Shown piece after piece: positions 21,611-54,753 of a DNA stretch of 64,000 nt (its first letter is position 1; every line of letters begins with the position of its first letter). The position numbers and the translations under genes were made by a program. The stretch comes from Neckera pumila (taxonomy: Eukaryota > Streptophyta > Bryopsida > Hypnales > Neckeraceae). The notes below the pieces were generated by a model. The model searched no databases and was not told the origin of the DNA. It worked only from the letters and a program-made list of their open reading frames with translations. The DNA lies in assembly GCA_963969595.1 (NCBI GenBank), contig OZ018416.1, positions 20,724,065 through 20,788,064 on the forward strand. Reading direction: 5' to 3'.

Positions 21611-22083
21611 CCACCCACAGCTCTTGCGCAATTGCACTCTCTGCGCAATGAGCTCACCAGGACTCACCCAAGCTCGTGACTCAGTTTCTTCTTCTGGAGC
21701 TTTTGCTGACGCTTAGATGTTCCACTTTCGGCTCCTTTCGGCCTGGAGCTTCGCCCACTTTTCTGTTGTCAGTTGTGCGGAACGTAACGCGTGTGCATTT
21801 CACGAGCACGTACAGTCGGTAGGCAAATCGAGGTTGGGGAATTGTAAGGGGTTCTGATCGAGTGTGGCCGTAGGTGGGCGTCGGTAATATTGTTTCAGCT
21901 TGAGCAAGCAAGGACGTTTCTGATCGACGTACTCAAGTTGCATCGATATCGAGTTCATTCTCGCCCTTAACTAATTGTTGTGTGTGTGCATGCAGCTTGT
22001 CGCCCAGCACTCGAGTTTGCATTTGGTAGTCTCTGAGACGACGCCAGTGGGGTTTGGGATATTGTGCACTAGAGGCCATAGAA

Positions 22084-23145
22084 ATGGATGTTGGTAAAGA
22101 TTGGTTTTATTTGAGTTTGTCTGGACTGCGTGATGGAGGCTTGGCTGATGTTAAAGCATCTGATAGGACACTGTCATATAGGGGTTTGCAGATCCATTCG
22201 AGGGCACTCGTAGGCAGTTCAAAGGTTGGTTTCGTTGTGGACCTCTACGGTGGATGTTATTTCTTGCCACTATTGAATTCCGAGCTACGATGGGTGAATA
22301 TAATCCAAGCATCACTGTACTCCATGTGGAAATCATGTGACGAGGAAGACAGGTGGTATGGTGCAACTGAAGAGCCCTCTGCGGCCTCAAACCCGTCTTA
22401 CGCCGTTGTTGTGTCAGCAGTGGTTCTGCTGGCTTTGGTATACCAATACCTCACGGGAAATGTGGACATAGGGAGCTCCAAAGCATACTCGCGTAGTTCT
22501 TTAGACTTTCGAGATATCTACGTAGCAATAGTCCTGTTCCTAGGCGCCTATGTGTGGATTAAGTTCAGAGAGGTAGCCCCGCTTAGAGGAGTGCACAAGA
22601 GAAAACGAGTGGACAAGCAAGGTCGCACCAAGGTGGTGTATGATGCACGATTGACACCTCCTCTGTGGAATGGACAAACAGTGCCAAAGCTCGATCTTGG
22701 GCAGTTTGCCACCCCACAAGAGGCACACAATAAGTTTCTTGTTGCTGCCTTCTACTACAACCGAGATGCAGGTTTGCTGGATGGTTGGTTTCAGGTCCCA
22801 CCCATGAGTGAGGAAGAGCGAAGCCTCACTGGCCTGGAGCTTCGGGCGTGGGTGGTAGGTCAAGCAAAAAAGGTTTATGAGGATTTCAAAAAGAAGGCGG
22901 AAGCCTTGCTGCTGCAGGAATTGTTTGAAGCTTTTGAAAATGAGGAGACGCCAGAGCAAGATGAGGTAAATGTGGACTTTTCTGTCGTGAGCTTGTTGAA
23001 CCCAGATGAACATCAACAGCCAGCCCTTGAGAGTCAGGTGGAGAACTTGGTAATGGATATGGCCATGCCTGAAAATCAAGTTTTGGAATGCGCATCACAA
23101 TCATTAAGGAACTTAGTGCTTCTGCTTTTGAGTGGTTTTCACTAG
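22084..23145 (+). CDS. AP2-like gene copy 2, first exon, lost splice donor
   Basis: The frame runs 353 codons from ATG at 22084. The AP2-like domain (about residues 175-240) shows RGVHKRK, VVYDARLTPP and KLDLGQFATPQEAHNKFLV, the shape of an AP2/ERF DNA-binding domain but divergent, lacking the usual Y before RGV. Two hydrophobic stretches precede it (SYAVVVSAVVLLALVYQYL and IYVAIVLFLGAYVW). They may be membrane segments, or the N-terminal part may really be intron or leader, since the 30.4-30.8 kb paralogue has many indels there. Paralogues end this exon with GATGGAATGCATGAG|GT. Here 18 bp covering that donor are deleted after CAATCATT (about 23105), so the frame reads through to TAG at 23145. 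A transcription-factor role is inferred from the domain only. Confidence 0.6.
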   Translation: MDVGKDWFYLSLSGLRDGGLADVKASDRTLSYRGLQIHSRALVGSSKVGFVVDLYGGCYFLPLLNSELRWVNIIQASLYSMWKSCDEEDRWYGATEEPSAASNPSYAVVVSAVVLLALVYQYLTGNVDIGSSKAYSRSSLDFRDIYVAIVLFLGAYVWIKFREVAPLRGVHKRKRVDKQGRTKVVYDARLTPPLWNGQTVPKLDLGQFATPQEAHNKFLVAAFYYNRDAGLLDGWFQVPPMSEEERSLTGLELRAWVVGQAKKVYEDFKKKAEALLLQELFEAFENEETPEQDEVNVDFSVVSLLNPDEHQQPALESQVENLVMDMAMPENQVLECASQSLRNLVLLLLSGFH

Positions 23146-31290: not shown

Positions 31291-33735
31291 TGTGGATTAA
31301 ATTCAGCGAACTAGGTTGCGGCGCTAAGAGGAATCCACCAAAGAACCCGAGTGGACAAGCAAGGTCGCACCAAGGTGGTGTATGATGCACGCTTGACACA
31401 TGGCTAATTTCGTTAAAATGGCGGTATTCCTAGTGCCATATTTTCCTTGTGCCATATTCCTTACGCCATATTCCTTACGCCATTTTTTCAGACCGTCCTC
31501 TTTAACATCTAGAATTGGTATAGACTCTAAACATCTAAGATTGTTGTAGATTTCAAACATCTAAGAATTGTGTAGATTTTAGACCGACCGTTCTAAAAAT
31601 TTAGGACTGATATAGATTTTAGATATCTAGGAAAGGCGTATATTTTCAGAATATACCCCTGTTGTAGATTTCAGAACGGCCGTTCTGAACTGACATAACG
31701 TGCCATTGTAATGGAATGCCGCCATTTTAACGAAATTCACCATACACCTCCCATGTGGAACGGTGAAACAGTGCCAAAGCTTGATCTTGGGCAGTTCGCC
31801 ACCCCACAAGAGGCACACAATAAGTTTCTTATTGCTGCCTTCTACTACAACAGAGATGCAGGTTTGCTGGATGGCTGGTTTCAGGTCCCACCCATGAGTG
31901 AGGAAGAGGGAAGCCTCACTGGCCTGAGGTTTAGGGCGTGGGTGATAGGTCAAGCAAAGAAGGTTTATGAAGGTTTCAAAAAGAAGAAGGCGGAGGCAGC
32001 CTTGTTGCTGCAGGAATTGTTTGAAGCTTGGGAAGATGAAGAGACGCCAGAGCAAGATGAGGTATATGTGGATTTTTCTATTGCGAGCTTGTTGAGCTCA
32101 GATGAACATCAACAGACAGCCCTTGAGAGTCAGGTGGAGAACTTGGGAATGGATTTGGTCATGCTTGACAATCATGATATGGAATGCGTATCTCATTCAT
32201 TCGATGGAATGCATGAGGTAAGGAACTTAGTCCTTTTGCTTTTGAGTGGTTTTCACTAGAATGGAATTTGTTTTTAGGTCTTGTTCCCGTTCATGAGAGC
32301 ATTCTAATTCATCGAAGCATTAAAACATATACTATGTGGATACTAGTCTACAAGAATAAGCGATGAATTATTGGTGTTTAAAGTAGTACCTAGGGTCCCA
32401 GTCACATTTTAACCTTGAGATGATGCATTTGCAGTGTATCTTCAACAAGCATCTTTGGATGCGATAGAACCAAGAAGTATTTCATATGACCATGTGCTGG
32501 CTTTATAAATGGATGATTTCTAAAGCCACGGGATTGGAAGCGCAGGCTTTAGTGGGTTTCTGCCTTATCTCAAATGCATTATCCTTGTTGGATTAGGTTT
32601 GTGACACCATTTGACGGATGATGTTCAGGGTCCTGCGCTTTCAAATGACTACAGCCTTGATTTTGAAGAAGGATCTGCTCTACTACTTTCACAACTTCCA
32701 CCAAACACAGAGAGTGGAATGATTCTGAACAGTAGTGACCAATGGAACTTACTTCAAACACTCACTTCTGAGGCAAGCTTGTTGAACTCAGCCGAGCATC
32801 AACTACCTCTTCTTGTGAGTCCGGCGGAGAACTCAGGAATGGCTACTGCCACGCTTGACGATCAAGGTTTGGAATGCGCATCACAGTCATTTGGTGGAAT
32901 GCATGAGGTAAACTACCCATTCCTTTGGCTTTCAACTGCTTTGAGTGTTTTTTCACTACTACAGTTGGGCAAACCATTTAAGGTCTTGTCCCCCATTCTT
33001 GAGCCGAATTAATTAAGCATTAAAACATGTCTTATTTGGATACTATATGAATTCGTGGATGAGTTTGTTAATGCCTGAAGTAGCAGTGTCTCTCAATTGC
33101 AAGTCTAGACTTGTCTTGAACCCTGAAATCATGCATCTACAAGGTTAGTATCTTCCATTTGGGAAGCATCTTTGATTGTGATAGAACCTAACTATGAGTA
33201 ATTTCATTTTAAAGTGGTCGCGTGGTCATGTGTTTGCATCGTGAACGGGTGATTTTTCAAGCCACCGGACAGGAATCTTCACGCAATTGGGTTGCATTGT
33301 TGCCTTATCACCAATTAGCTATTGCACGTCTTTGACATCTTTTGGTGGATCCCTGATGTTCAGGGTTTTGTGACTTCCAATGGCCACAGCCTTGGTTTTC
33401 AGGAAGACTCTGCAATACCGATTTCACAGCTCGCACCAGATACACAGAGTGGCATGGGTATCAACAACAGCAACCAATTGAACTTACTTCAAATTGTGCA
33501 TAACCAGCAAGAGCTGATAACTTATTTGTGTCAGCAACTCGAAGAATCCAGGATTCACATTTCTCAGCTCGAATCTCAGCATTTTGTTCAGCAGCAGCTG
33601 CAAGTCATCAATCAAGGAGTTCCAAGCTTTGCGGTGGAGATGGAGCAGAGCGCGCCTCAACAAAATCACCCCTGCACAGGCCTACTGCAGCCTCGGCCTT
33701 CTGGTGAAGGGGAACCCCAAGAAGCCTTCATCTGA
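31291..33735 (+). pseudogene. AP2-like gene copy 3, three exons, MITE in the AP2 domain
   Basis: The exon continues from GGATTAAATTC (31291) into VDKQGRTKVVYDARLTPP. It is split by a 344-bp MITE at 31400-31743 and resumes as KLDLGQFATPQEAHNKFLI. It ends at GAG|GTAAGG (32217/32218). A second exon (about 32630-32910) opens like the glutamine-rich exon of copy 2 (NDYSLDFEEGSALLL) but finishes with EASLLNSAEHQLPLL and GGMHE, the end of the AP2 exon in copy 1. A third exon (33364-33735) is a glutamine-rich exon ending EPQEAFI. The order suggests unequal recombination between two gene units. The exons downstream of the MITE have no stops, but the DNA-binding domain is interrupted. Confidence 0.65.
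31400..31743. mobile_element. MITE with 4-bp duplication (ACAC), 344 bp, inside AP2 exon
   Basis: Ends ATGGCTAATTTCGTTAAAAT and (inverted) ATGGTGAATTTCGTTAAAAT, flanked by ACAC at 31396-31399 and 31744-31747. Copy 2 preserves the empty site GATTGACACCTCC. Together with 23322-23652 this fixes the family's target duplication at 4 bp. No coding capacity. Confidence 0.9.
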
Positions 33736-35912: not shown

Positions 35913-36570
35913 TATGACTTCGAAAGCATCTCTTCATTCGAGAAATTCAAAGACAGGAGCTCACCAGACAACAACTTGATGGTGGCGATGATGAGAGCAA
36001 TGAAAGTATGGGGAGCATCCTTGCTTCCTCGAGGTAGTCTCAACTCTAAAAAATGTCTCTGTACTAACCGAAATCAATTCAGATTGATAAGCATCCAATA
36101 CAGACCAGATTGACATATCAACCACTTAAAATCCATGCCGCACTGCAATTCATCACCTCGACTAAACTAACAAAAAGCAAGTATTTTCTCGTTCTTCAAG
36201 GCTCACCTGATTCTACCCACAGAAGCGGTACAAACGTTGTCTGGAGGAAAAAGGGGCCTCTTGCAGTTTCAGTTAGCACTTTGTTTTCTTGTTCTCTCTT
36301 CTCTTCTTTTCATTGGTTCGGTTTCTCTTTGCTGCCAGCTTCGGCTTGGCTCCTTTGTTTTCTGGTTTGCCTTCTAATACATTGGTACTTTCCATTTGTT
36401 TAAAAAAAAAAGAAGCTCACCTGATTCTGCTCGCTGAGAAAAGTCACATTTTCCATGACAAGAATTGAAGGCACCTCAATAGCATACCCACTCCTCCGTT
36501 TTTCTCACATTTTTCGAGAGCCGTAAAGTACCTGCTCTTACTCCCCCCTTCGGCCTCTTCAGCTTCCAAC
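35913..36570. other. No supported gene
   Basis: Two CT-rich stretches around 36270-36400 and no recognisable coding or RNA signal. Confidence 0.35.
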
Positions 36571-36834
36571 CAGGGCTTTTTTTTTGGCTTTCTGGTGCCA
36601 GATTGCACCAAAAAAAAAATCTGGCTAAAAAAGGTTATAAAAAATGCCAAAAAAATTGGATGAAATTGCCAGACAACTTTGAAATTAAAAAAAATATTAG
36701 ATGAAATCGCCTAATTGTGGATGAAAACCATACTATACATCCAATAAGTGGATGAATGTTGCAATTTGGAGCACCACTGTAACATTTTATATCGCCACTA
36801 TGGCACTTCTTCAAAAATGAAAAAAAAGCCCCTG
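36571..36834. mobile_element. hAT MITE, 264 bp, 8-bp duplication
   Basis: Starts CAGGGCTTTTTTTTT and ends AAAAAAAGCCCCTG. The 8-bp flanks CTTCCAAC (36563-36570) and CCTCCAAC (36835-36842) differ at one base. CAGGG-type ends with 8-bp duplications define hAT elements. The inverted copy at 42219-42483 is nearly identical. No coding capacity. Confidence 0.9.
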
Positions 36835-41307: not shown

Positions 41308-42210
41308 CGTTGACGCTAGCATGTGAGCGTATGAGCGAGAGCCTAAGAGCAGTGAGCGGAAATTGTGTGAGCTTAGAGGCTAGAAATTTAAAACGTGATG
41401 TAATTTCTAAAAATTTTGGGCTAAAAAGTTAAAAGAGTGTTTGTTTTTCAACAAAATTAATTATATTTAGAAAATTATGACCTATTACCACAGGATCCAT
41501 GATCATAGATTTTAGATTTAAAAACCTAGGATTTGGGGAAGTTGGTGCTATTGCATGTTTTGAAATTTATATCACATTTTGAAGGGCTGCCCTAGGGTGG
41601 GCTAATGAAGTGAGCGCACAAATAATTAATTTGAAGGCAGTTCCAAGGATGAGAGGAAGACGAATGCAATAAAATCATCATAGGATGTGGAACATTGTGA
41701 ACATAATAAAATACTCTTTTATTGCAGGAAGGAATACATATTGGAATATGAATATAATATTTAGCTACTTGAATTTGAAGATTTTGAAGATAATATATTG
41801 GTACTGCATATCTACTTCATATCATGCTAAGATCTATCAATTAACTTGCTTCCTTGCACGTCTTGATGATTCCGGCAACAACAAACACTTGCTTCACTTC
41901 ATCCAAGCTGAGGATAGGAGCTTGGATGAATGTGTCTATCTTATAATCCAATTTGCAAAATTAACGAAAGATGTAATAAAGGTGTTTGTAGTTTATGTAC
42001 ATGCCACGCCTTCCAATAGAGGTCCCATTTATACTTCCATAGTGAGGATAAGTACAAGATGAAAAATTGCAAAGTGTAATGTTATAAATCTTTTGGTTAG
42101 ATTCAACCCCGGACAAAAGTATAATAATAGCACCGAGTCCAGGGTAAGGAAGGAAGTTTTCCCTATGAATATTTGCGGTTACATTCCTTCTCAATGAAAT
42201 ATCTAATTTA
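41308..42210 (-). pseudogene. Older fragment of a related Mutator-like element (right end)
   Basis: On the minus strand, FLPYPGLGAIIILLSG and then CTYPHYG...INYKHLYY match the C-terminus of the transposase at 54.0 kb. Two SWIM cysteines are changed to Tyr (CTC to CTY, CKH to YKH). The far end (41308-41400) carries GACGCTAGCATGTGAGCG and GTGAGC repeats like the 54.7-kb terminus. Only about 170 codons survive, so this is the decayed right end of a related copy in reverse orientation. Confidence 0.75.
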
Positions 42211-42218
42211 GAGTGCAC

Positions 42219-42483
42219 CAGGGCTTTTTTTTTCATTTTTGAAGAAGTGCCATAGTGGCGATATAAAATGTTACAGTGGTGCTCCAAATTACAACATTCA
42301 TCCATTTATTGAATGTATAGTATGGTTTTCATCCACAATTAAGCGATTTCATCTAATATTTTTTTTAATTTCAAAATTGTCTGGCGATTTCATCCAATTT
42401 TTTGGGCATTTTTTATAACCTTTTTTAGCCAGATTTTTTTTTCTGGTGCAATCTGGCACCAGAAAGCCAAAAAAAAAGCCCTG
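42219..42483. mobile_element. hAT MITE, 265 bp, perfect 8-bp duplication
   Basis: Starts CAGGGCTTTTTTTTTC and ends AAAAAAAAAGCCCTG, flanked by GAGTGCAC at 42211-42218 and 42484-42491. Same family as 36571-36834 but inverted. Its right duplication shares one base with the 9-bp duplication of the large element that starts at 42500. Confidence 0.95.
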
Positions 42484-42499
42484 GAGTGCACACTATGAT

Positions 42500-42700
42500 C
42501 GGGGATGCTAGTATGTGAGTCTATGAGCATGAGCCTGTGAGCGTGTGAGCCTATGAGCCTGTGAGCCTTCAATTTTTTTTTGGAAATTTAGGGTTTGTAA
42601 ATTTGTTAAAGACCTATGACTGTGGAATTATATGAAAGGATCTACAATCCAAATGAACAACAAATGAATATGCCACTATGTGATTTTGTACCAAAAATTG
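42500..42700. repeat. Left terminal region of the 12.2-kb element
   Basis: GATGCTAGTATGTGAG followed by repeated GTGAGC/ATGAGC hexamers to about 42570, then GACCTATGACTGTGG. Subterminal hexamer clusters of this kind are plausible transposase-binding sites. Confidence 0.65.
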
Positions 42701-43199
42701 ATCTATAGGCCTTCATGTAAATTTAAAGAATGAAAATGGTCCACCTATTTTATTTTATTTTTATAACTATGCTTTTAAATTTTAAAAATATCTTGAACAT
42801 GTAATACATAAAATAAACATAGTAGTCATATTTTATATACCAAATGAATGTGTAAATCCCAAATGACCTAAACCACTATTTTTCTAGTTGATGTCCTTTT
42901 GGGGGGACCTATTTTTAATTGATTACATAATTAATCTAATGGTAGTAGTTTCATTGAATTCCAAGTTAAATTCAACTTCCTAAAATTTCATATAATTTAG
43001 TGGTGGAGTATAAATCAAGGCTCATAAGGTATTGGCAATTTAGGCACAAGGTGAAGTTTTAGGGCAGCAAATGGGATTCGAATTGCTACACTGCTACATC
43101 ATTGCTATGTTCAAATTGCAAATTGCTACATCATGTATAGGCAAATTCAATTTGAAAAACAAGACAATAGGAATAAAATATCAAATTATGAAAATAAAC
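42701..43199. other. 3' flank of the minus-strand gene, noncoding
   Basis: AT-rich, no frames. It lies between the element's left end and the stop codon of the minus-strand gene and would contain its 3' UTR. Confidence 0.5.
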
Positions 43200-46100
43200 T
43201 TAGATTTCGTCTGACTCAGATGCACTGAGTTCAAAATAAGAACATACTCTAGGATCATAAGATCTACGAGGAGATTGAGAAATTGAAGATGAATCAGATG
43301 AATCATTAGCATAAGCTAATGCTAAAGCTTCAACATAAACAGGGAGGCCACGAGGACTAAGAGAGGGACTTCTAAAAAATCCAGGGTGCTGATAAAAAGG
43401 CAAGGTTTGCCTTGGCAATGGAGTCATCCAACTGCAAACAATAAACCATATATCAAAAATGGAGTAACAAATTAAAATACAAGGTATAGGATTTATAATT
43501 GAAGTTGTTGAAAAGGAATAATATAAGTAGAATAATATAAGAACTTACTTACATAAGTCAAGTAGTGCAACGTCTTCAATTGGAGAGTCATCATCAATGT
43601 CCATACCATCACGTGTGGTAGTAGAATCTAGATTTTTGGAGATGGTTATAGGTGTTTTTAGAGGCTTCAGTACCTCATCAAAGAGTTTGGCATCACTTTC
43701 TAGTGCAAGGATATGGCGATTAGAAGAATGTGCCGCTTTAATAGAAGAACCTGAGTGAAACACAATATATGAATTATGAAACATCAAAATTGAAGAATAG
43801 AATTAAAAATCAAACAAAAAATAGAAAAAGAAGTAAGTCAATATTGTAGATTACAATACCTGTAGAGGCAGTCATGTCTGCTACAATGCCACCTACAGGA
43901 CTCAAACCATGAACAAGAAGCTTCATTAGAACCTCAGACTTTTCTTTTGCACCCCTCCATGGCTTGCCATCTTCCTTTCTACATAATTGACTTGCTATAG
44001 TAACAGAATTGAAGAGGATGTCGTTTGTGGCTAAATCAACTTCAGGAATTGAAGGATCATTAGTAATCACAAACTCCCGAGGCTGCCTTGTAATGGGAGA
44101 AGCAAATGATCGAACCAACAATAAAGCCTTGAACTTCATAGTCTGGAATGAAAATCAGATGAAATTAGAAAGTGCGCATAAAATCAAAGGAAATACAATA
44201 AAAAATGAATCAATGACGAAAATGAAAGTTTGAAATTGTAACTTACTTTTTTAGTTGGATTCATAGGATTAGCCAAGTGCAAACAGTTGATGATAGTCCA
44301 TTCATCCTTGACCTTCAACTTGTAGTTTTTGAAGAATCCTGCCACTTCTCTCTTTACCGTCAAACTATCAGGATAAAATAGAAGGAATGCTCCATCATCA
44401 TGAAGATAGGTGAGACAAAATGCCATCATTATTTGAAGAAAACTTGGAATGTTGGCATTCCAGTGGGGAATTTGAGATGGTGGATTTGAAACCCCTGGAA
44501 CTGGAAAACCATCCGGATAATCCGCAATGATGAGATCCACTGCAGGTTTCTTTTGAACTTTGCCATCAAAAAAGAACTCCCTGCCTTCACCAACCTACAA
44601 AGACAAATTTATATAATGTTAATTCATAATTGAAGATGTTAAAGGCACAAAACATTATGAATTCGAAGAGATGGATTTTGTAGAACATGTAAGATTTCAT
44701 AACAATGAAACATGAAATAGCAAAGAAAATCAATAAAAAGAATGAACTCACCTTTGATAGAAAAGATACAATGTCGTCATATGGCGCGCCAAATGTACCA
44801 GTCTTCTTTTTCTCCTCGATAATTCTAACAAAAGAATCATTTAAAATCAACTCCAAGGATGTATGAGGGGACGACAAAGGAGCCAAAGTACCCATCATAC
44901 CTTTAAATTGGGGAGGAAGTTCAAAGATAGGAGAAGAAGTTGGCACCAAAACCACAGGAGTAGAAATAGTCTTTTGTCGCTTTAAAGGGGGGAGGGTAGC
45001 CTCAACATTTGAAGAAGAAGGTCCAGTAACAAGAAGATCCTTGAGACTATCTTCAACTGGCACATCTTCATTGGAATCATCAAGATGAACTATTTCTTTC
45101 TTTGGCTTAGCTTTTGTCTTTCTTGTCTTCTTCGTTGCATCCTTATCCATCGTTGTAACTATGATTGTACCTTTGAGTGCAGGTTCAATGGAATCTCGAA
45201 GGGCAATGTCAAAAGTGGGAGGTCTTTTGAGAGGACAATCCAAATACCACCCACACCTTTCCCAATGCAAGGGATCCCAAGAACTCATGATCCCCTCTGT
45301 GAACATGCAATCTTCACTTTCTTTGTCCAAGTAATTTGCAAAGAAAGCAGGAGATTTGGAAATGGCTTTAGCAGGAAAAAGAATATACTTGAAGTATCTG
45401 TAAAGCACCCTTTGCATAGCTGGTTTGAAGTTCAGCTGTTTATCAATCTTATGGTTCTTGTGGATCCCCTTATCCACATCAAATTCACGGAAAAATGCAG
45501 CATCCCACAACAATATGCGCATTGACTCCACATAATCAAAGATTGTGGGCAAAGGATCCATACCATCTGGAAGATAGTTAATAGACACTCCCAGATCAGC
45601 TACTGTGGCATCAAATAGCTTTTCTGTTTCAACAGCCAACTGTGACATACAAAATTTAGATTAGAAGAATGTTATGATTGAACAAAAAGGTTCAAAGGAA
45701 GAATATGAAAAAAAAATAAGATTAGTACTCACCTGAGCCCACCATGTAGCTTTATGAAGCCACTCAGGGAAGTCAATATCATTGAATTTTGACTTAGGAA
45801 ATTTGAGTGCTTCGCGAAGAGAAGGAGACTTATTCCACCTCTCTAACCACTTGATCTTCATAGAAGTGTCCATTGCTGAAGTTGCTAGCATCCAAAGTTT
45901 CTCTTGAGTCATCTCTGGACTTTCATCGTGAGTTTCATAGTGAAACTTCACTTGCTCTAAGAAGGCAGTCGTGTGTTTTGGATCTGCAATAGGAAGTTGT
46001 TTCCTCAATTCAGAATGAGAAGCTATCTTGACCTTGTCAACAGTTTTAGAGACCCATTCATGAACTGCAGATGGAGTCCAATCTGCTGGATTGGGATATT

Positions 46101-48950
46101 TCTCATAAAATTTCCTTTGAGTAGTTGCAGCAGACTCTCCCAACTCTTGCTGCATAAGATAATTGATGTATGAGAATAAGAAAAATGACACACGATGACA
46201 AATGATGTATACAATGATTCATAGTATATTAATTCAAATTAACAATAAGAACAAAAAGAAGAGATAAAAATTGAAAACAAAATATGAAGTGGCCAATAAA
46301 AGTTTAAAACTTTACCTGGTATAAGACTCCGTTTAGAGCCTCAAGAGTGAGAGTGAACCATGTTCTTTGTTTTGACTTCTGCTTTGCTTCAGCTGCAACA
46401 AGATCATTGTTGGAGACAAGTTTTTCAAAATATGAGAGTGGTTGGCCAGCAATACTCTGAATGCGATAAAGTTTGTGAACAAGATTTATAGAAACATGGG
46501 ATTTTTGGTTTCTCTTGGACAAACAAGATGTATTGTGTTAAAATTTATGAAGTGAACATGAAAGAAAAAAAATATAGAATAGCAACAATTCCAATGTTTC
46601 AAACCAAACAACCTTTAGTGACTAAGAAGTGAAATGAACCAAACTTTGATAAATAAAGAAAAGAGATTACCAATTCACTTCATGTAATGCTGCCAACATA
46701 GTTGCAATATCTCCCTTAACCTCCAAAATAATACTTTCAACCGCATAATGCCAGATGAAGTCATCTGCATGATCGCGGTTGATTATAGGTAGCCATGCTT
46801 GCAGACGATGGTTGCCATCCCATACCATAAACATCTTGCCTGCAAAAACTTTGAGATCTTCATCATTCTCCAATTCTTTCTCAAATGCAGCATTGGCCTT
46901 CACCCAATTGGCACTCCAGGATTTAACAATATCATTCGTGACATCTACTGTCTTTCCTTCATTGTCTTCCAAGGCCACATAAAAAACTCCATTTCCTTCC
47001 ATGTAACCGCAAGTAATAAAATGTGCAGCAAGGTTCATAACGTCATTCTTCAAAAAGGGCCTCACAACTGGCAAAGAAATCATACGACACAAAGGAATGT
47101 TGATTTTTGATTTTGCCTTTGGTTGATACCTCAACCGCTCAAGAAGAGAAGATGTGTTGACAGTCTCTTTCTTCAAAAAGCCATGGAACTGTAACTCCAA
47201 TTGATCCTCAGAAAGAGGTTGGTGTAAGACATCTAATCCCGGTGCATCTGGATCTCTTTGTGTCATGATCTTTGTGATGACATCAAAAAAGAGATTAATA
47301 TGTAATTTGACATAACAATTGTTAACTGTTGCAGCTTAGAAAGGCTCCAAAAATTTAGCATTGAAGGAAACCGTAATATATATAGCAAGCAAATTTATGT
47401 TCTAGAAGAGGCTGCCGTTAACAGCTGAGGTGTAGGATGCTAAAACATTTAAGCAATGAATCTGAAATTTGAACTGCGGTGGAAGAATTTCTACGTCCCG
47501 AAAAGGGCTGCCGTTAACGGCTGGGGTGTAGGATGCTAAAAAATTTCAGCAATGAATCTGAAATCTGAACCGGAGGGAAAAAAATTCTACATCCCGAAAA
47601 AGGGCTGCCGTTAACGGCTGGGATGTAAGATGCTAAAAAATTTCAGCAATGAATCTGAAATCTGAACCGAAGGGAAAAAAAAATTCTACATCCCGAAAAG
47701 GGCTGCCGTTAACGGCTGGGGTGTAGGATGCTAAAAAATTTCAGCAATGAATTTGAAATCTGAACCGGAGGGAAAAAAAATTCTACATCCTGAAAAGGAC
47801 TGCCGTTAACGGCTGGGGTGTAGGATGCCACAAAATTTCAGCAATGAATCTGAACCGGAGTGAAAAAAAATTGTACGTCCCGAAAAGGGCTGCCGTTAAC
47901 GGCTGGGGTGTAGGATGCCACAAAATTTCAGCAATGAATCTGAAATCTGAACCGGAGGGAAAAAAATTCTACGTCTCGAAAAAGGCTGCCGTTAACGGCT
48001 GGGGTGGAGGATGCCACAAAATTTCAGCAATGAATCTGAAATCTGAACCGGTCTCCAAAAAAATTCTATGTCCCGAAAAAGGCTGCCGTTAACGGCTGGG
48101 GTGTGAGAAGGTGAAAAATTACTATGTGCGACCTAATTTCTAATGCGCAGAATAGGAAAGTTTGACTCCCGAAAATGGCTGCCGTTAACGGCTGGGGTGT
48201 GAGAAGGTGAAAAATTACTATGTGCGACCTAATTTCTAATGCGCAGAATAGGAAAGTTTGACTCCCGAAAACGGCTGCCGTTAACGGCTGGGGTGTGAGA
48301 AGGTGAAAAATTACTATGTGCGACCTAATTTCTAATGCGCAAAATAGGAAAGTTTGACTCCCGAAAATGGCTGCCGTTAACGGCTGGGGTGTGAGAAGGT
48401 GAAAAATTACTATGTGCGACCTAATTTCTAATGCGCAGAATAGGAAAGTTTGACTCCCGAAAATGGCTGCCGTTAACGGCTGGGGTGTGAGAAGGTGAAA
48501 AATTACTATGTGCGACCTAATTTCTAATGCGCAAAATAGGAAAGTTTGACTCCCGAAAACGGCTGCCGTTAACGGCTGGGGTGTGAGAAGGTGAAAAATT
48601 ACTATGTGCGACCTAATTTCTAATGCGCAGAATAGGAAAGTTTGACTCCCGAAAACGGCTGCCGTTAACGGCTGGGGTGTGAGAAAGTGAAAAATTACTA
48701 TATGCGACCTAATTTCTAATGCGCAGAATAGGAAAGTTTGACTCCCGAAAATGGCTGCCGTTAACGGCTAGGGTGTGAGAAGGTGAAAGAAACTGTGCCA
48801 TTGGACGGAATCCTAGCATATACTATTCTAAATCGGAACCCAAAAAAGCGCAGCCGTTAACGGCTGGGGTTTTGAAAGGCCAAGAAAAAAGCCGCATACC
48901 TGGATTTCCTTCAATGCTTGCACTTGTCTCGTGATTTCTTCCTTGTCCAT
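43200..48950 (-). CDS. ParB-like / beta-class DNA methyltransferase-like fusion gene
   Basis: Nine exons (minus strand): 48950-48900, 47269-46671, 46454-46316, 46149-45733, 45639-44752, 44594-44247, 44142-43860, 43750-43549, 43431-43200. All junctions are GT-AG and phases agree. The product is about 1,051 residues with no disabling change. Residues about 160-200 hold MVWDGNHRLQAW, the DG.HR signature of the ParB/sulfiredoxin fold. A basic stretch KKTRKTKAKPKK (about 570) may be a nuclear signal. Then come AVDLIIADYPDG (about 720, methyltransferase motif IV position), HDDGAFLLFYP, EKSEVLMKLLVHGLSPVGG and IVADMTASTGSSI (about 905, motif I, SAM site). This IV-to-I order is the beta class of N6-adenine/N4-cytosine methyltransferases. 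Motif IV reads DYPD instead of DPPY, so activity is doubtful. The start is the least certain part. Confidence 0.8.
47405..48870. repeat. 96-bp tandem array with GTTAAC-centred palindrome, 16 units
   Basis: GCCGTTAACGGC occurs perfectly 15 times (47510, 47607, 47705, 47802, 47892, 47988, 48085, 48181, 48277, 48373, 48469, 48565, 48661, 48757, 48853) and once with a mismatch (47414). Spacing is 96-98 bp with one 90-bp step. Two unit types with different spacers (47.4-48.1 kb and 48.1-48.8 kb) keep the same period and the same core. The last unit has a 16-bp perfect palindrome, CAGCCGTTAACGGCTG. The array fills the intron between the first short exon and the ParB-like exon. Confidence 0.95.
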
Positions 48951-49541
48951 CTTGCCGCACAGATTCCGTTGTAGCCTCTACCGCAACCTCCGCCTCTTCC
49001 ATGGTGATCGCTTCTTGTCCCTCCCTTGTTGGTTGTTGCCTCGGCGCCTTCAAAGACGACGTTCAAAGACAACACAAGAGTTAGGGTGAAACTAGTCTCC
49101 AAAAAAAAACAAAAAAAAACAAGGAAGAGATTGGTAGATATAGCTCAAGGGAATCTTCTAAATAACTTCTTCAATTTTTAAGATTTCAAGCCAAAAAATT
49201 TTATACCCATAGATTATACACGTCAAATTTACTCCAATTTTTTTCAGAATTTTAGGACACTTGAGCGAATTTACAAAAATCAGCAAAAATTGCTAAAAAT
49301 AAAAGTGCTGGATTTTGCCTAAAAATCATCAGAAACTGAACATTTCAGGGAAGATTCTAAGATGCTGAATTAGTTTTTAGGGCATAAAATACTCAATATT
49401 GGTCCGTTTTTTACATGCTATATACCGTTGGAATCGGGCTTTCGGCGCGCATGAAATGATGCAAAGTTGCAAAATCTGCCTCTAAGAAAAAATTTCACAT
49501 ATATTCAAACTCAATATCACTTGGGATAATTATTTCCTTAC
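48951..49541. other. Intron or intergenic, with second candidate exon
   Basis: Contains the acceptor TTTGAAG (about 49030) and the acidic frame MEEAEVAVEATTESV running to the 48900 donor. The rest (49060-49520) is AT-rich and noncoding. Confidence 0.4.
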
Positions 49542-49925
49542 CATTGTGTTTGTGCTTCCTACCTCCTGCTCCAATTCTATTGTTCGGGCTATTTGTTGTT
49601 GCTGTTCTTCCTCCTCTTCTCCGTTAATATCTTGATCCCAATCACTACAACTTGAGGCAATATCTGCTTGAGCTTTGCAAGAGACGGGTTCAACTTCCAC
49701 GTTATCTTCTCCAATTGCTTCACATGAAACAATACCTTCATACGTCAAATTCCTCGTTGTGCCAGACAGATCAACCGCACTAATTAGAGGCACCCGTCTA
49801 GTCATTCTAGCCCTTAACAATTGCCTTCTACTTGAATAACGAAAACTACTTTTCTTCCTCCTCTTCTTCCTACCTTGAACTGGAGTTTCCAACGCTAACA
49901 ATGGAGAAAACAAATATCCTTGCAT
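49542..49925 (-). CDS. Upstream exon, basic-then-acidic, probably same minus-strand gene
   Basis: An open frame starts MQGYLFSPLLALETP, has a strongly basic stretch (GRKKRRKKSSFRYSSRR) like a nuclear localisation signal, then turns acidic with EEEEEQQQQ. It ends at a donor, AACACAATG|GTAAGG (49542/49541), phase 0. The next candidate exon (about 49030-48900) can be read in two frames. One is an acidic frame (MEEAEVAVEATTESV) that could join the ParB exon through an alternative acceptor. The other is the MDKEEITRQ frame used in the main model. So this may be the true first exon of the fusion gene, or a separate small gene. Confidence 0.5.
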
Positions 49926-50603
49926 CTGAAAAAATAAACTAGTAGGGCCTTACAATATCAGCATCTTCCAATCCTCCATACTACATCACCCACTTCTTGC
50001 AACATGCGTTTTTACATACTGCTTCATTCCACTCTGCAACCTTTTATATTCTAAGGAACTTCAACAGCTATTCTCCACAAAATTGGAACTCAATTTTATA
50101 AGTAAGTGACGGCTTCATATGTCTGTTATTCATATTATCATCAATGAAAAAAACCTTTACCTATCTCAAGATATGCAATTATCATTGCAAGTATGTCAGG
50201 TATCATGCAATCTAAGGCATTTTGATCTATCGTCTCCTATCAGTGCTAGCTCTAATTCTACTAATATTGTCTGACAGAAAATGATACATTGTCAGTATTA
50301 TAGTTCATTTATTATTTCTGATTTACTAATTGATACTATGCAGTACGCCGCCTTACCCAACTTCATTTCAAATGTTGTTGATATATCTTCTTCTAGAGCA
50401 AATCTTGATATGATACGCAATAACAAGCATTGAAATCATCAATCAAATTTCAAATTATACGGCATCCCTGATATATGTCCGTTCATTTCAAACAACCATA
50501 GAAGCTTTCATTCTTCTTTATATTCGCACCCCTTGCATTTGTAAACATCATTGCTTGCTTCCTAATGCTGCAACTTCCCTGCAACTTTATGTGACACTTC
50601 AGT
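49926..50603. promoter_or_regulatory. Divergent intergenic region between accessory gene and transposase
   Basis: 678 bp between the outermost minus-strand start (49925) and the transposase ATG (50604). Genes point away from each other, so both promoters should be here. TATA-like sequences exist (TTTATATTC near 50043 and 50518), but none is decisive. No open frame. Confidence 0.45.
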
Positions 50604-53600
50604 ATGGCTACTATTGTTGCAAGAGGTCATGAGGTCCCATTTGTTTTACCATTAGGTAGTCAAGGTTTTGTACATGTGCCCACCCATCTCCTTCATGTCC
50701 GCTTTGGGTTCTCCCCTTCTTCTATTGTCATAGAGGAAGAAGTCCAAGATGACTATGGCATTCTTAAGGAATCAATCTTGCAATCAAAATGTAGTGATCA
50801 AGAAGGGTTCTACTGGCTTCTTTTTGCAGGGCGCTTCAGAGTTTATGGTCTCTCGCTTGAGCTTTTGCCAACTTCAACTGAAATACTGACATCCCTTCCT
50901 GATAATTTCAATGCTGAACTCCCACTTGTACGTCCAGTCAAAGTGGAATCTCTAGCTAGTGGATGGTCTGAGAATACAGTTATGTTCAATGTCAATGATG
51001 TCAAACGCGAGTCTCTAGAACCAGTCATACAGTTATCCAGTGATTCTGAAGGCGAGACACCAATTCAAGTCTGTCAACCTTCTTCTTCAAATCTTGCTTT
51101 GCCACCTACTGTGGAGTCATTTGTTCCTACTACCTTTAGTTCTTCTTTTAGTAGTTCCGCATCGTCCGGATTTTCTCGTCCTCCTCTTCCTCCCAATCAT
51201 CGTGATTCCCTAACTGTATTATAGTGTCTACGCAAATTGTCTTCTATGCCCGGATCACGGAATGAACTTGCCCAAATTGATTTTGATGCCATTAAATATC
51301 AGAACGTCCAATTCCTCCCAGCTAGATTTGATGGCGATGTTCTTTTTGAGCTACCGCCGTGTCGTGGATCCACATGTGGGTCTAGGGGCATGGAGGGCAT
51401 GGATAAACGGTATGATGGTCATGCATGGAGTCGTACTATGACCTCTAACATCCATAACGACCTCGGTTTAAAGTTCAGAAAGTCGCATTGTGTTGGACAT
51501 TTGATTTGTGAGAATCCGAGATGTGACTATCGCACACGAGCTTCAAAAAGTAACGAAACTGAGTGGATTGGGACCACCAAGCATCCTTTCAACATAGGCC
51601 AGATTCCTCCACTAGAGTCTACTGTGCTTTGTAAAGTTTGTAGACAACCTCCTACTTGTCTCAGTCTATGTAACTCGCGGATTTATTATGTATAGAGAAC
51701 TGCAAATTTGTCACGTGCAGCGATCCACTTGGGTGTTCATTCACATCCAGTTGCTGATGGCCAGTGTAGAGAGTCTCTCGAAGCAATCACCGGATTGATT
51801 GCTCACGAAGTGGCAAGGACTCCAACTGCTAAAACTTCTGCCATTACCATAGCGGCAAGCAAGGAGTTCCTTGATACATTTCTGATTCACAATGGACCCA
51901 GACCAAAGGAGATGCTTCATGGCGATGCATTAGAGAATGTCATGGATAAGTTCCAACTCCTTAGCTCGCCGAATGTGCGGAATATGATATCTTCTTTTAG
52001 GAACAACAACAAAGGAGGTGGTGAGATTGATCGGATTCTTGACATGAAGGGACGTGCCAAAATGGAGTATATCCATGATAGTGTATTTCCAGGACAAGGA
52101 CAAGAGAAGGTTTATTTGTTCAAGATGCTTGTGGATGGACCTGGGAGCGGTGTTGATCTTGTACGACAGATGCAACCAAATGGCGACCTTGGAAATTGCT
52201 TCATCATATTTGACCATGTAAAGAGGGTGAAATTATGGACAACTATTGCTTGTCACGTCTATGACTCTACTTACTGCAAAGTCATGACCATTGCCGTCTG
52301 TGATATGCAGATTGAAGGCACCGAAGGTCAGATCATTTTTTGGCGTTGTCTGAATAAGGTCATGGCACAAAATGGGATGTCAAATCCAACCTTCAAGGGA
52401 TTCATGTGCGATAGTGCTTAAGCCAACTTCAATGCAGTTCGCATTGTATATGGGTCGGGAGATCCATCCCTTCCAATGGTGGATTGTGAAAGGACTTGCT
52501 TGTTCCACTGGGCAACAAGCATGCACAAGCATACAGAGAAGCTAATTGCAAAAGAGTTCCAAAACCAGTATATCCGACTGTGCAGGCAATATAAGGATGC
52601 AACATCAATGTCCAAGGCGGACAAGATGTATCTAGAAATTAGAGCGTGGTGGTATTCCTCTGGAGCTGCATCAGAATCGGCAATTCGGATGAACTCGAGG
52701 ATTGGCTGGCCTTTTGGCACTTTTGATATCGGCAGTGGGGTGGATTCATGGAAACGGTATGATCTTCACTCTCATTCTTTTTTTCATATCTTTTTCTACA
52801 TTTCAAACCAATCCAATAATGACTTCATCATCATCTTTGCAGAAACTGACAACTGAAGAACTAGCAGACATCCCAACGTGCAACCTTGCAGAAACAGTGC
52901 ATAATAAATGGATGCAAGCTTCTGGCAAACGCGGGTCTGATTTGTTTGTAGCCACTTGCGATGATTGGGTTCGAGCTTTTATGCAAATGACGAATTATAG
53001 GGCTTATCTTTGCGGAGGCCCTTATGGGAAGGGACCCTCTAAAGAAGATTTGAAACTGAAGAGAGCTATGGCATCTGGAGATGGGAAGAAAATTGCAGAC
53101 GCTCTAAGTCAGATGCTTGGAGCGGAAGACATCTGCACCCGAATTCTGCATTTGGAGGGAGAAGAGGTATTTGGGTCCGGCAAAAGAAAATTGGATCTTC
53201 CAATCGGTTCTGAAGGTGATTCTCATCGCCCTGACAAGGTGAACTTTTCCCATCCTCGAGTTCAAATTAGATCAGCCGCTGCTACTGTACAAATCAGGGC
53301 TGAAAGTGAGGAATTTAATACAGTCATGCCTCATACCCAATCTGTGGTGGAAACAGATTGTAATACATCGGAGTGGCACATAGCAAGAATTTCACACAAG
53401 TCAAGGAAGCAGTGTCATGCCATTCAGAAGTACACACAAGCCAAATGCAAGCTACTAATTGTTAGACATGGTAAACCTACTGCTGCTCCTACTTACAAAG
53501 GACAAAAGCGTGAATATAAGGGCACAGCTGTTCAGACCGAGGATTTCTGGTTTTGTGCAGATCAAATTGCACGATGTGTCATGGGACCTAAACGTTCTCA

Positions 53601-54225
53601 TGTTCTTACACGACCCGAGATTCCTAACGTCTGGCCTGTTCTTACTGGTACCAATCTTACTCGTACTGAAATCATAGAGTTGGAAGAAGCTGGATTTCAC
53701 CTGCAATCTAGTGTGCCAATGTCACCTCGACGTCTATTCACCTCATCTAGGGTATTTGAGCCTATGCTCTGGACTCATCCTCGACCAGCACATGCTGAAA
53801 GAATCCCTTCCATTCGAAATGGCAAGCAAGTTCGACGGAGTAGTAAGGCGCCCACTGAAAATCATCGTAATCAGTGGGAAAGTGCAAGGAATGTTACTGC
53901 AAGTATTACTGGTGTAAATTTCCTTCCTTATCCTGGACTTGGTGCTATTATTACGCTTTCTTCTGGGATTGAACCTAATCAGAAGGTTTACAGCATTACT
54001 CTCTGCAATTTCCCATCTTGTACTTGTCCCCATTATGGAAGTATGAATGGGATGTCCATTGGAAAGCGTGGCATGTATGTTAACTGCAAACATCTTTATT
54101 ATGTCTTTCGCTATTTGTGCAAATTGGATTATAAGATACATCCATTCATCCACGCTCCTACCCTCAGCTTGGACGAAGTTAAACAAGTGCTTATTACGGC
54201 CGGAATCATCAAGACATACGAGTGA
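50604..54225 (+). pseudogene. Mutator-like transposase, WRKY/GCM1 and SWIM fingers, three stops
   Basis: The element's cut-and-paste transposase, about 1,170 codons. After a low-complexity N-terminal part comes a zinc finger (51480-51750): HCVGHLICENPRCDYRTR, VLCKVCRQPPTC, then HLGVHSH, the WRKY/GCM1 type. The DDE core has a first Asp in IIFDHVK (52212-52214), a second in FMCDSA (52410-52412), and the CLFHW motif (52497-52511) of the C2H helix. An intron of about 85-105 bp follows (acceptor 52842; donor GGG|GTGGAT at 52740 keeps frame, GTATGA at 52757 does not). The C-terminal SWIM finger is CTCPHYG...NCKHLYYVF (54018-54092). In-frame stops TAG 51222-51224, TAG 51693-51695 and TAA 52419-52421 all fit Gln codons changed by C to T. 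It cannot be made full length as it stands. Confidence 0.8.
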
Positions 54226-54744
54226 CCAAGTTAATTGACAGATATTAGCATGATATAAAGTAGATATGTAGTACCGATATATTATCTTCAAAATCTCCAA
54301 ATTTGAGTAGCAAAATATTATATTTTTATTCCAATATGTATTCCTTGCTGCAATGAAAGAATATTTTATTATGTACACAGTGTTCCACATCCTATGATAT
54401 TTTCATTGCATTTATCTTCTTCTCATCTTTGAAATTGCCTCTAAATTATATATACTCTCACTTAATTAGTCCACCTTTGGACGGCCTCTCTAAATGTAAT
54501 ATAAATTCCAAAACATGCAATAACGCCAACTTCCCAGGCTTTTAGATATAAAACCCACGGTCATAGGTCTAGTGGTAATAGGGCATCTTTTCTAAATATA
54601 ATAAACAAAATCAATCTTTTTACATTTTAACCAAATAAATTTACAAATTACATCAAGTTTTTTATTTTCAGGCTCTAGGCTCACACAATCCCCGCTCACC
54701 GCTCTCAAGCTCACGCTCACATGCTCACATGCTAGCGTCGTTGA
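54226..54744. repeat. Right arm and terminus of the 12.2-kb element
   Basis: 3' flank of the transposase, then GACCTATGACCGTGG (inverted, near 54560), GAGC-rich hexamers (54670-54730) and the terminal GACGCTAGCATGTGAG on the minus strand. The order mirrors the left arm. Confidence 0.65.
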
Positions 54745-54753
54745 CACTATGAT

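Follow-up and report, generated by a model that had tools for sequence, protein, structure and literature searches.

Ends and genes of the transposon

The 64,000-nucleotide stretch of Neckera pumila contig OZ018416.1 analysed here (the window) contains a 12.2-kb Mutator-like DNA transposon at positions 42500–54743. It carries a transposase gene on the plus strand and, diverging from it on the minus strand, a predicted gene that joins a ParB-fold domain to a methyltransferase-like domain and holds an array of short palindromes in one of its introns. Both ends of the element recur in eight of ten close copies fetched for comparison, and a 10-bp duplication lies outside each of them (ACACTATGAT, at 42490–42499 on the left and 54744–54753 on the right). 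The original prediction had described 9-bp duplications; the repeat does flank both ends, but comparison with the other copies placed the end of the element at 54743 and extended the duplication to 10 bp. The 9-bp word CACTATGAT is found twice in the window (42491–42499 and 54745–54753), and two or more occurrences were also obtained in 13 of 100 shuffles of the window. As a word alone it is weak evidence, but its location at both ends of the element is not. The ends are related and rich in GTGAGC, as previously noted: the left terminal inverted repeat (42504–42568, plus strand), which includes GTGAGC-rich 8-bp tandem repeats, and the right one (54677–54739, minus strand) are 75% identical across 65 bp.

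The transposase is predicted to be encoded by two exons with one intron. Exon 1 (50604–52756, plus strand) encodes a putative GCM-like domain and a DDE domain, and the translation of exon 2 (52843–54225, plus strand) contains a CxC...CxH pattern, which we take to be SWIM-like, without a Pfam match. Fold comparison revealed a Mutator/IS256-like DDE fold, in agreement with the Mutator-type transposase proposed for this strand. The core has 59 homologous proteins outside its own genome. In the window copy the frame is broken, with four in-frame stops and a single frameshift. Mutator-like elements (MULEs) are recognized by target-site duplications of 8–11 bp (mostly 9 bp), terminal inverted repeats, a DDE transposase of the IS256/Mutator fold and a WRKY-GCM DNA-binding domain. 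The Pfam MULE models gave no match at E 1 in 21 scanned members or in the frames of the window. Duplications of the appropriate size, terminal inverted repeats and a DDE transposase of the IS256/Mutator fold are all present, and because fold, ends and duplications fit, the element is a Mutator-like one, albeit divergent.

The minus-strand gene is separated from the transposase frame by the stretch 49926–50603. Our model consists of ten coding exons, not the nine proposed originally, and predicts a protein of 1231 amino acids; all inner exon borders are AG/GT, and the frame is open throughout. Exon 1 (49542–49925) encodes a basic N-terminus and is followed by exon 2 (48900–49047). Downstream of the ParB exon lie three linker exons, namely exon 4 (46316–46454), exon 5 (45733–46149), which is recognisable in two divergent families, and exon 6 (44752–45639). 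After the exons of the methyltransferase-like domain, exon 10 (43200–43431) contributes the C-terminus and the stop codon.

The ParB-fold and methyltransferase-like domains

When the whole predicted protein was compared with 5.8 billion proteins, no match at E ≤ 0.001 was obtained in a search whose length filter probably excludes single exons of a split gene. Exon 3 alone (46671–47325, minus strand) retrieved 122 homologous proteins at that threshold from the protein collection, 120 of which were listed. Searches of this part by sequence gave nothing useful in Pfam, PHROG or NCBIfam and a single chance row in PDB (E 0.33). Its ParB identity was detected solely through fold comparison, a search in which the absence of a family from the list is no evidence of absence. 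The DGNHR motif, which had been read as a sign of a ParB/sulfiredoxin fold, indeed sits inside a predicted fold of this type. The GxxR P-motif is present as GNHR; across 26 sequences, G151, N152 and R154 hardly vary.

The methyltransferase-like domain is spread over three minus-strand exons. According to the gene model and motif comparison, exon 7 (44247–44594) encodes the half with motif IV; profile searches and motif comparison assigned motif X (PWRGAKEK) and the start of motif I to exon 8 (43860–44142); and the remainder of motif I, which binds S-adenosylmethionine (SAM), together with an acidic residue, falls in exon 9 (43549–43750) by gene model and profile match. The gene had been assigned to the beta-class DNA amino-methyltransferases. 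The order IV-X-I is right for this class, and motif X and the SAM loop are present, but motif IV reads DYPD instead of DPPY. None of the 11 window-family copies has DPPY (most read DYPD, the others DYPN or DYLD), and it is also missing from two divergent families, which have GDLKDG and ANVPEN. In active enzymes, the aromatic residue of motif IV holds the flipped base. Since motif IV does not conform to the catalytic pattern (D/N/S)PP(Y/F/W) of beta-class amino-methyltransferases, we did not classify the gene as an active methyltransferase.

Profile searches connect the domain to DNA methyltransferases. The search against PDB gave seven rows, six of which we take to be beta-class DNA methyltransferases: DpnA (E 0.0065 and 0.0071), CcrM (0.23), 2zie (0.84) and RsrI (two rows at 1). 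PHROG 3008, a DNA methyltransferase, was matched at 4e-5, and PF01555 at E 0.0017, which is weaker than its curated cutoff; the latter was reported for five of five members at E up to 1. Alignment with three phage methyltransferases by hhalign gave 93.7% across 62 columns spanning motifs X to I, and tblastn of this part in phages returned 15 records (best E 0.05), the annotated ones all being methylases. For an algal protein with both domain types, methyltransferase activity is predicted in the available text of PMC12477816. Together, these points would suit a working self-methylase, targeted to the element by its ParB domain and writing N6-methyladenine or N4-methylcytosine there, as a mark for the transposase or against silencing, an idea raised originally and also put forward for the algal elements. 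We nevertheless consider this unlikely, as the base-holding aromatic residue has gone along with DPPY in every family inspected, and in the PDB search an unrelated ciliary protein (E 0.054) outranks CcrM. Because motif IV is degenerate, DNA modification by the element protein appears doubtful. As the SAM-loop region was kept but the catalytic DPPY motif was lost, we consider a regulatory module that binds SAM, or one that contacts DNA, more likely than a functional N6-adenine/N4-cytosine methylase.

Copies of the gene pair and their palindromes

Further copies were sought in the element's own genome (339.5 Mb, 18 contigs). The ten close copies were picked by their match to the ParB exon and are not a random sample, and the lesion counts carry no claim about selection. 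Eight of them have the same two ends and both genes, L003 has the left end only, and L014 the right end only. Each of the eight complete copies, like the window, is flanked by its own 9–10-bp duplication (exact in seven, one mismatch in L002). The original interpretation would have been refuted had the two genes never shared ends and duplications, and these copies show that they do; judged from them, the transposase and the ParB-methyltransferase-like gene are transposed together. Of 11 copies, two (the window and L005) have an unbroken ParB-methyltransferase frame, whereas the transposase is unbroken in none of the ten assessable ones. All-pairs ratios of nonsynonymous to synonymous change (dN/dS) for the whole frames of the close copies were 0.62 for the ParB-methyltransferase gene and 0.69 for the transposase, values in which selection is mixed with decay. 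Separately, we observed that the stops in copies L002–L014 could have arisen through C-to-T type changes, a pattern that decaying methylated cytosines would be expected to leave. Approximately 24 kb from the ParB exon of L003 is a transposase match of 96% identity (G000:C3, near 16989319 and 17013499), as if the copy had been split by a later insertion.

At least 150 places matching ParB exon 3 were scored in the genome, from 478 candidates, and at least 151 matches to the transposase core were found, with 150 of 585 candidates scored. Pairing was counted for 149 of 150 ParB rows (one exon is split, and its second part, C3:7278743, was omitted) and 150 of the 151 transposase matches (one was unlisted). 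Of the 149 listed ParB exons, 63, down to 32% identity, have a listed transposase match that is divergent from them, being 5' of the exon, on the other strand and no more than 12 kb away. Pairs of other geometry numbered only 3, and random positions, drawn with approximate lengths for contigs C10–C12, gave a mean of 0.49 and a maximum of 5. By identity to the window exon, 24 of 28 ParB exons were paired at ≥90%, 6 of 13 at 80–90%, 1 of 15 at 60–80%, 0 of 19 at 50–60%, 5 of 10 at 40–50% and 27 of 64 at 30–40%; the unpaired classes may represent fragments, incompletely listed matches or true losses. These 149 ParB rows were also set against 149 of the 150 rows for the methyltransferase (second piece C3:45110724 omitted): exon 7 was found on the same strand within 9 kb downstream of a listed ParB exon in 65 pairs, versus 5 of other geometry (29 of 29 at ≥90% identity, 9 of 13 at 70–90%, 27 of 107 below). 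A set of 27 transposase rows chosen by eye in this comparison carries no weight as evidence. The divergent copies L051 (56%, decayed) and L052 (40%) conserve the order of ParB domain, linker and methyltransferase-like domain.

Pairing in 63 of 149 exons down to such low identity indicates that the partnership of the two genes is old. By these comparisons, the gene pair is an old, much diversified family and not one captured gene, and a recent acquisition by one element is not supported. Between subfamilies, the aligned ParB exons show purifying selection, with dN/dS of 0.14–0.19 versus L027, L028 and L030 (dS 0.34–0.44) and 0.28–0.41 versus four closer copies; versus L051 and L052, synonymous sites are saturated. 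We also noticed two pairs of ParB exons from different families on C6 (8575941/8634898 and 8585015/8643958) with an equal spacing of approximately 59 kb, which suggests a segmental duplication.

In the three families examined, the DNA immediately 5' of the ParB exon holds a repeated motif with dyad symmetry that is particular to the family (16, 21 and 18 bp), and the three are unrelated in sequence. In the window, repeat and motif searches located the array in intron 2 (47412–48866). It consists of approximately 96-bp units, each with the core GCCGTTAACGGC, which is present 15 times exactly and 16 times near-exactly and nowhere else in the 64 kb. A perfect 16-bp palindrome, CAGCCGTTAACGGCTG, is found at 48851–48866, most other sites differing from it by one base. 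The units are of two types; around the palindrome these match at 27 of 28 columns, and beyond it at 36 of 69. At least one exact core lies upstream of the ParB exon in 30 of 30 loci (window included) and none downstream, and the ten fetched copies have 4 to 9 near-exact cores each. At the same place, the 56% family carries 13 near copies of GCACTCCCTNNNAGGGAGTGC and the 40% family 4 near copies of CCCCGCGGNNCCGCGGGG, the latter without a tandem array. With up to three mismatches, each family's motif was absent from the available sequence of the other two. CCCCGCGGNNCCGCGGGG occurs 21 times in the genome (control 0), with AA or TT at the centre every time. Measured against 28 ParB rows that were chosen by eye from the 150, 19 of the 21 sites lay 1186–1249 bp 5' of a ParB exon, which are homologous positions of one family; the other two had no ParB row nearby by eye.

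Plain dyads with arms of 8 numbered 18, 12 and 7 in the three target stretches, above all 100 shuffles (means 1.5, 1.8 and 2.0), but two of eight control stretches also exceeded all 100 shuffles, and when the arms are 10 long the window array shows no excess over its shuffles. In our judgement, weight belongs to a family-specific motif being repeated at the same place, and not to how many dyads there are. An analysis of covariation in the 21-bp dyads was dropped, as it yielded approximately one covarying pair among 9 distinct sites. The family-specific dyads fit what would be expected if a dimeric ParB-like protein and its binding sites evolved together. Dyads in an intron would also fold in the RNA of the gene, and their position on its 5' side in all 30 loci would suit hairpins, splicing or regulatory signals, or sites bound by the transposase or by a host factor, with the ParB protein acting elsewhere. 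This appears improbable, given that the dyads of the L057 family are dispersed, with no tandem array detected by TRF, and that the window motif is a palindrome without a loop and would make a poor RNA hairpin.

Candidate self-recognition by the element protein

With about even confidence, we regard the element as a Mutator-like transposon with a sequence-specific recognition protein of its own. Given that the repeated dyads in the gene differ from one protein family to the next, the simplest reading is that the ParB-fold protein would bind them, probably as a dimer. It might load as a nucleotide-gated clamp, like bacterial ParB at parS, and would thereby coat its own element only. Less surely, this coat could shield the element from host silencing, like VANC of VANDAL, or aid the transposase. 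By analogy, a parS-like design is the best reading of such a self-recognition system, with a VANC-like anti-silencing effect as a possible outcome. The complete scheme, in which a clamp on co-evolving palindromes, a SAM-sensing non-catalytic methyltransferase domain and a defence against silencing would form parS-like addressing in a transposon lineage, is put forward more tentatively.

In bacteria, parS is a palindromic site to which ParB binds as a dimer. According to the available text of PMC12704722, ParB clamps gated by CTP are loaded at parS and spread from there. The ParB fold with GxxR and the dyad-symmetric sites beside the gene are shared with bacterial ParB-parS, KorB and Noc; in contrast, the setting here is a eukaryotic transposon and the domain is fused to a methyltransferase-like one, a helix-turn-helix and a ParA partner being canonical ParB features. 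Loading and spreading, and the retention of both array and protein with the transposase, would also be compatible with a replication- or segregation-like or transposase-helper role, in which the ParB-array complex pairs ends or sister copies during transposition. We hold this to be quite improbable: the array is internal and away from the ends, and no ParA-like frame was noticed between them in the list of reading frames, although no search aimed at ParA was made. Copies decay and other tandem repeats occur in the window, but decaying passenger cargo with an unrelated satellite in its intron is very improbable, as Pack-MULE capture concerns fragments not shared across families, whereas linkage, architecture and dyads are common to families of 32–56% identity here, and the ParB exon is under selection.

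The proposed self-recognition by the ParB-fold protein has a close parallel in VANDAL21/VANC21 of Arabidopsis, where a transposase is likewise accompanied by an accessory protein and tandem motifs lie in the introns of the accessory gene. In the available text of PMC5735166, DNA methylation is lost on the element through VANC proteins, and the intronic motif repeats of VANDAL elements change fast between related elements. Because these introns have the same layout, with loss of element methylation there, comparable self-recognition may be inferred here. The VANDAL system differs in its DUF1985/DUF287 domains, which Pfam scans of our exon frames and domains taken singly did not report, in its short motif and in that anti-silencing was tested there, whereas our array is a candidate target.

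The protein type itself is already known in transposons. According to the available text of PMC12477816, Sola1-1_Ec32 of Ectocarpus has a gene for a 1104-amino-acid ParB plus N4/N6 methyltransferase protein opposite its transposase; such genes are also mentioned for green and red algal transposons, and binding and modification of the own transposon are suggested. The accessory gene with these two domains, its strand opposite the transposase and the proposed self-binding are alike, but the carrier there is Sola and here Mutator-like, and the likeness noted is one of domain make-up. The palindrome array and the loss of motif IV are unmentioned in that text. Phage fusions of ParB and N6_N4 methyltransferase (available text of PMC12704722) also unite the two domain types in one protein, whereas neither IMG/VR nor GTDB contigs yielded a confirmed relative of our ParB part at the thresholds applied. 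The accessible part of PMC12695648 mentions no ParB-methyltransferase transposon gene, and apart from PMC12477816 none was found in the literature searched, as far as its text was available. The earlier remark that no described plant element of this make-up was known is thus partly correct in view of the algal genes; within the same literature, we found no description of a Mutator-like carrier, of family-specific palindrome arrays, of the degenerate motif IV or of the family size.

If the ParB domain binds the arrays, a prokaryotic addressing mechanism would operate inside eukaryotic transposons. This would provide several protein-site pairs within one genome for specificity tests and, beside VANC, a second route for transposons to tell their own DNA apart from host chromatin. 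The fate of a DNA methyltransferase that lost its catalytic motif but retained its SAM region would be revealed as well.

Immediately to the left of the transposon is what remains of a related element (41312–42189; 84% over 568 nt, with a similar end). Between the two, at 42218–42484, is an inverted-repeat element of approximately 266 bp with an apparent AGTGCAC duplication of its own; a second copy at 36570–36834 (versus 42219–42484) has the opposite orientation and is 96% identical over 224 nt. Farther away, two diverged copies of one gene were observed at 22030–23142 and 31699–33732, whose product presumably resembles a plant acyl-CoA-binding protein and has a membrane stretch at its N-terminus.

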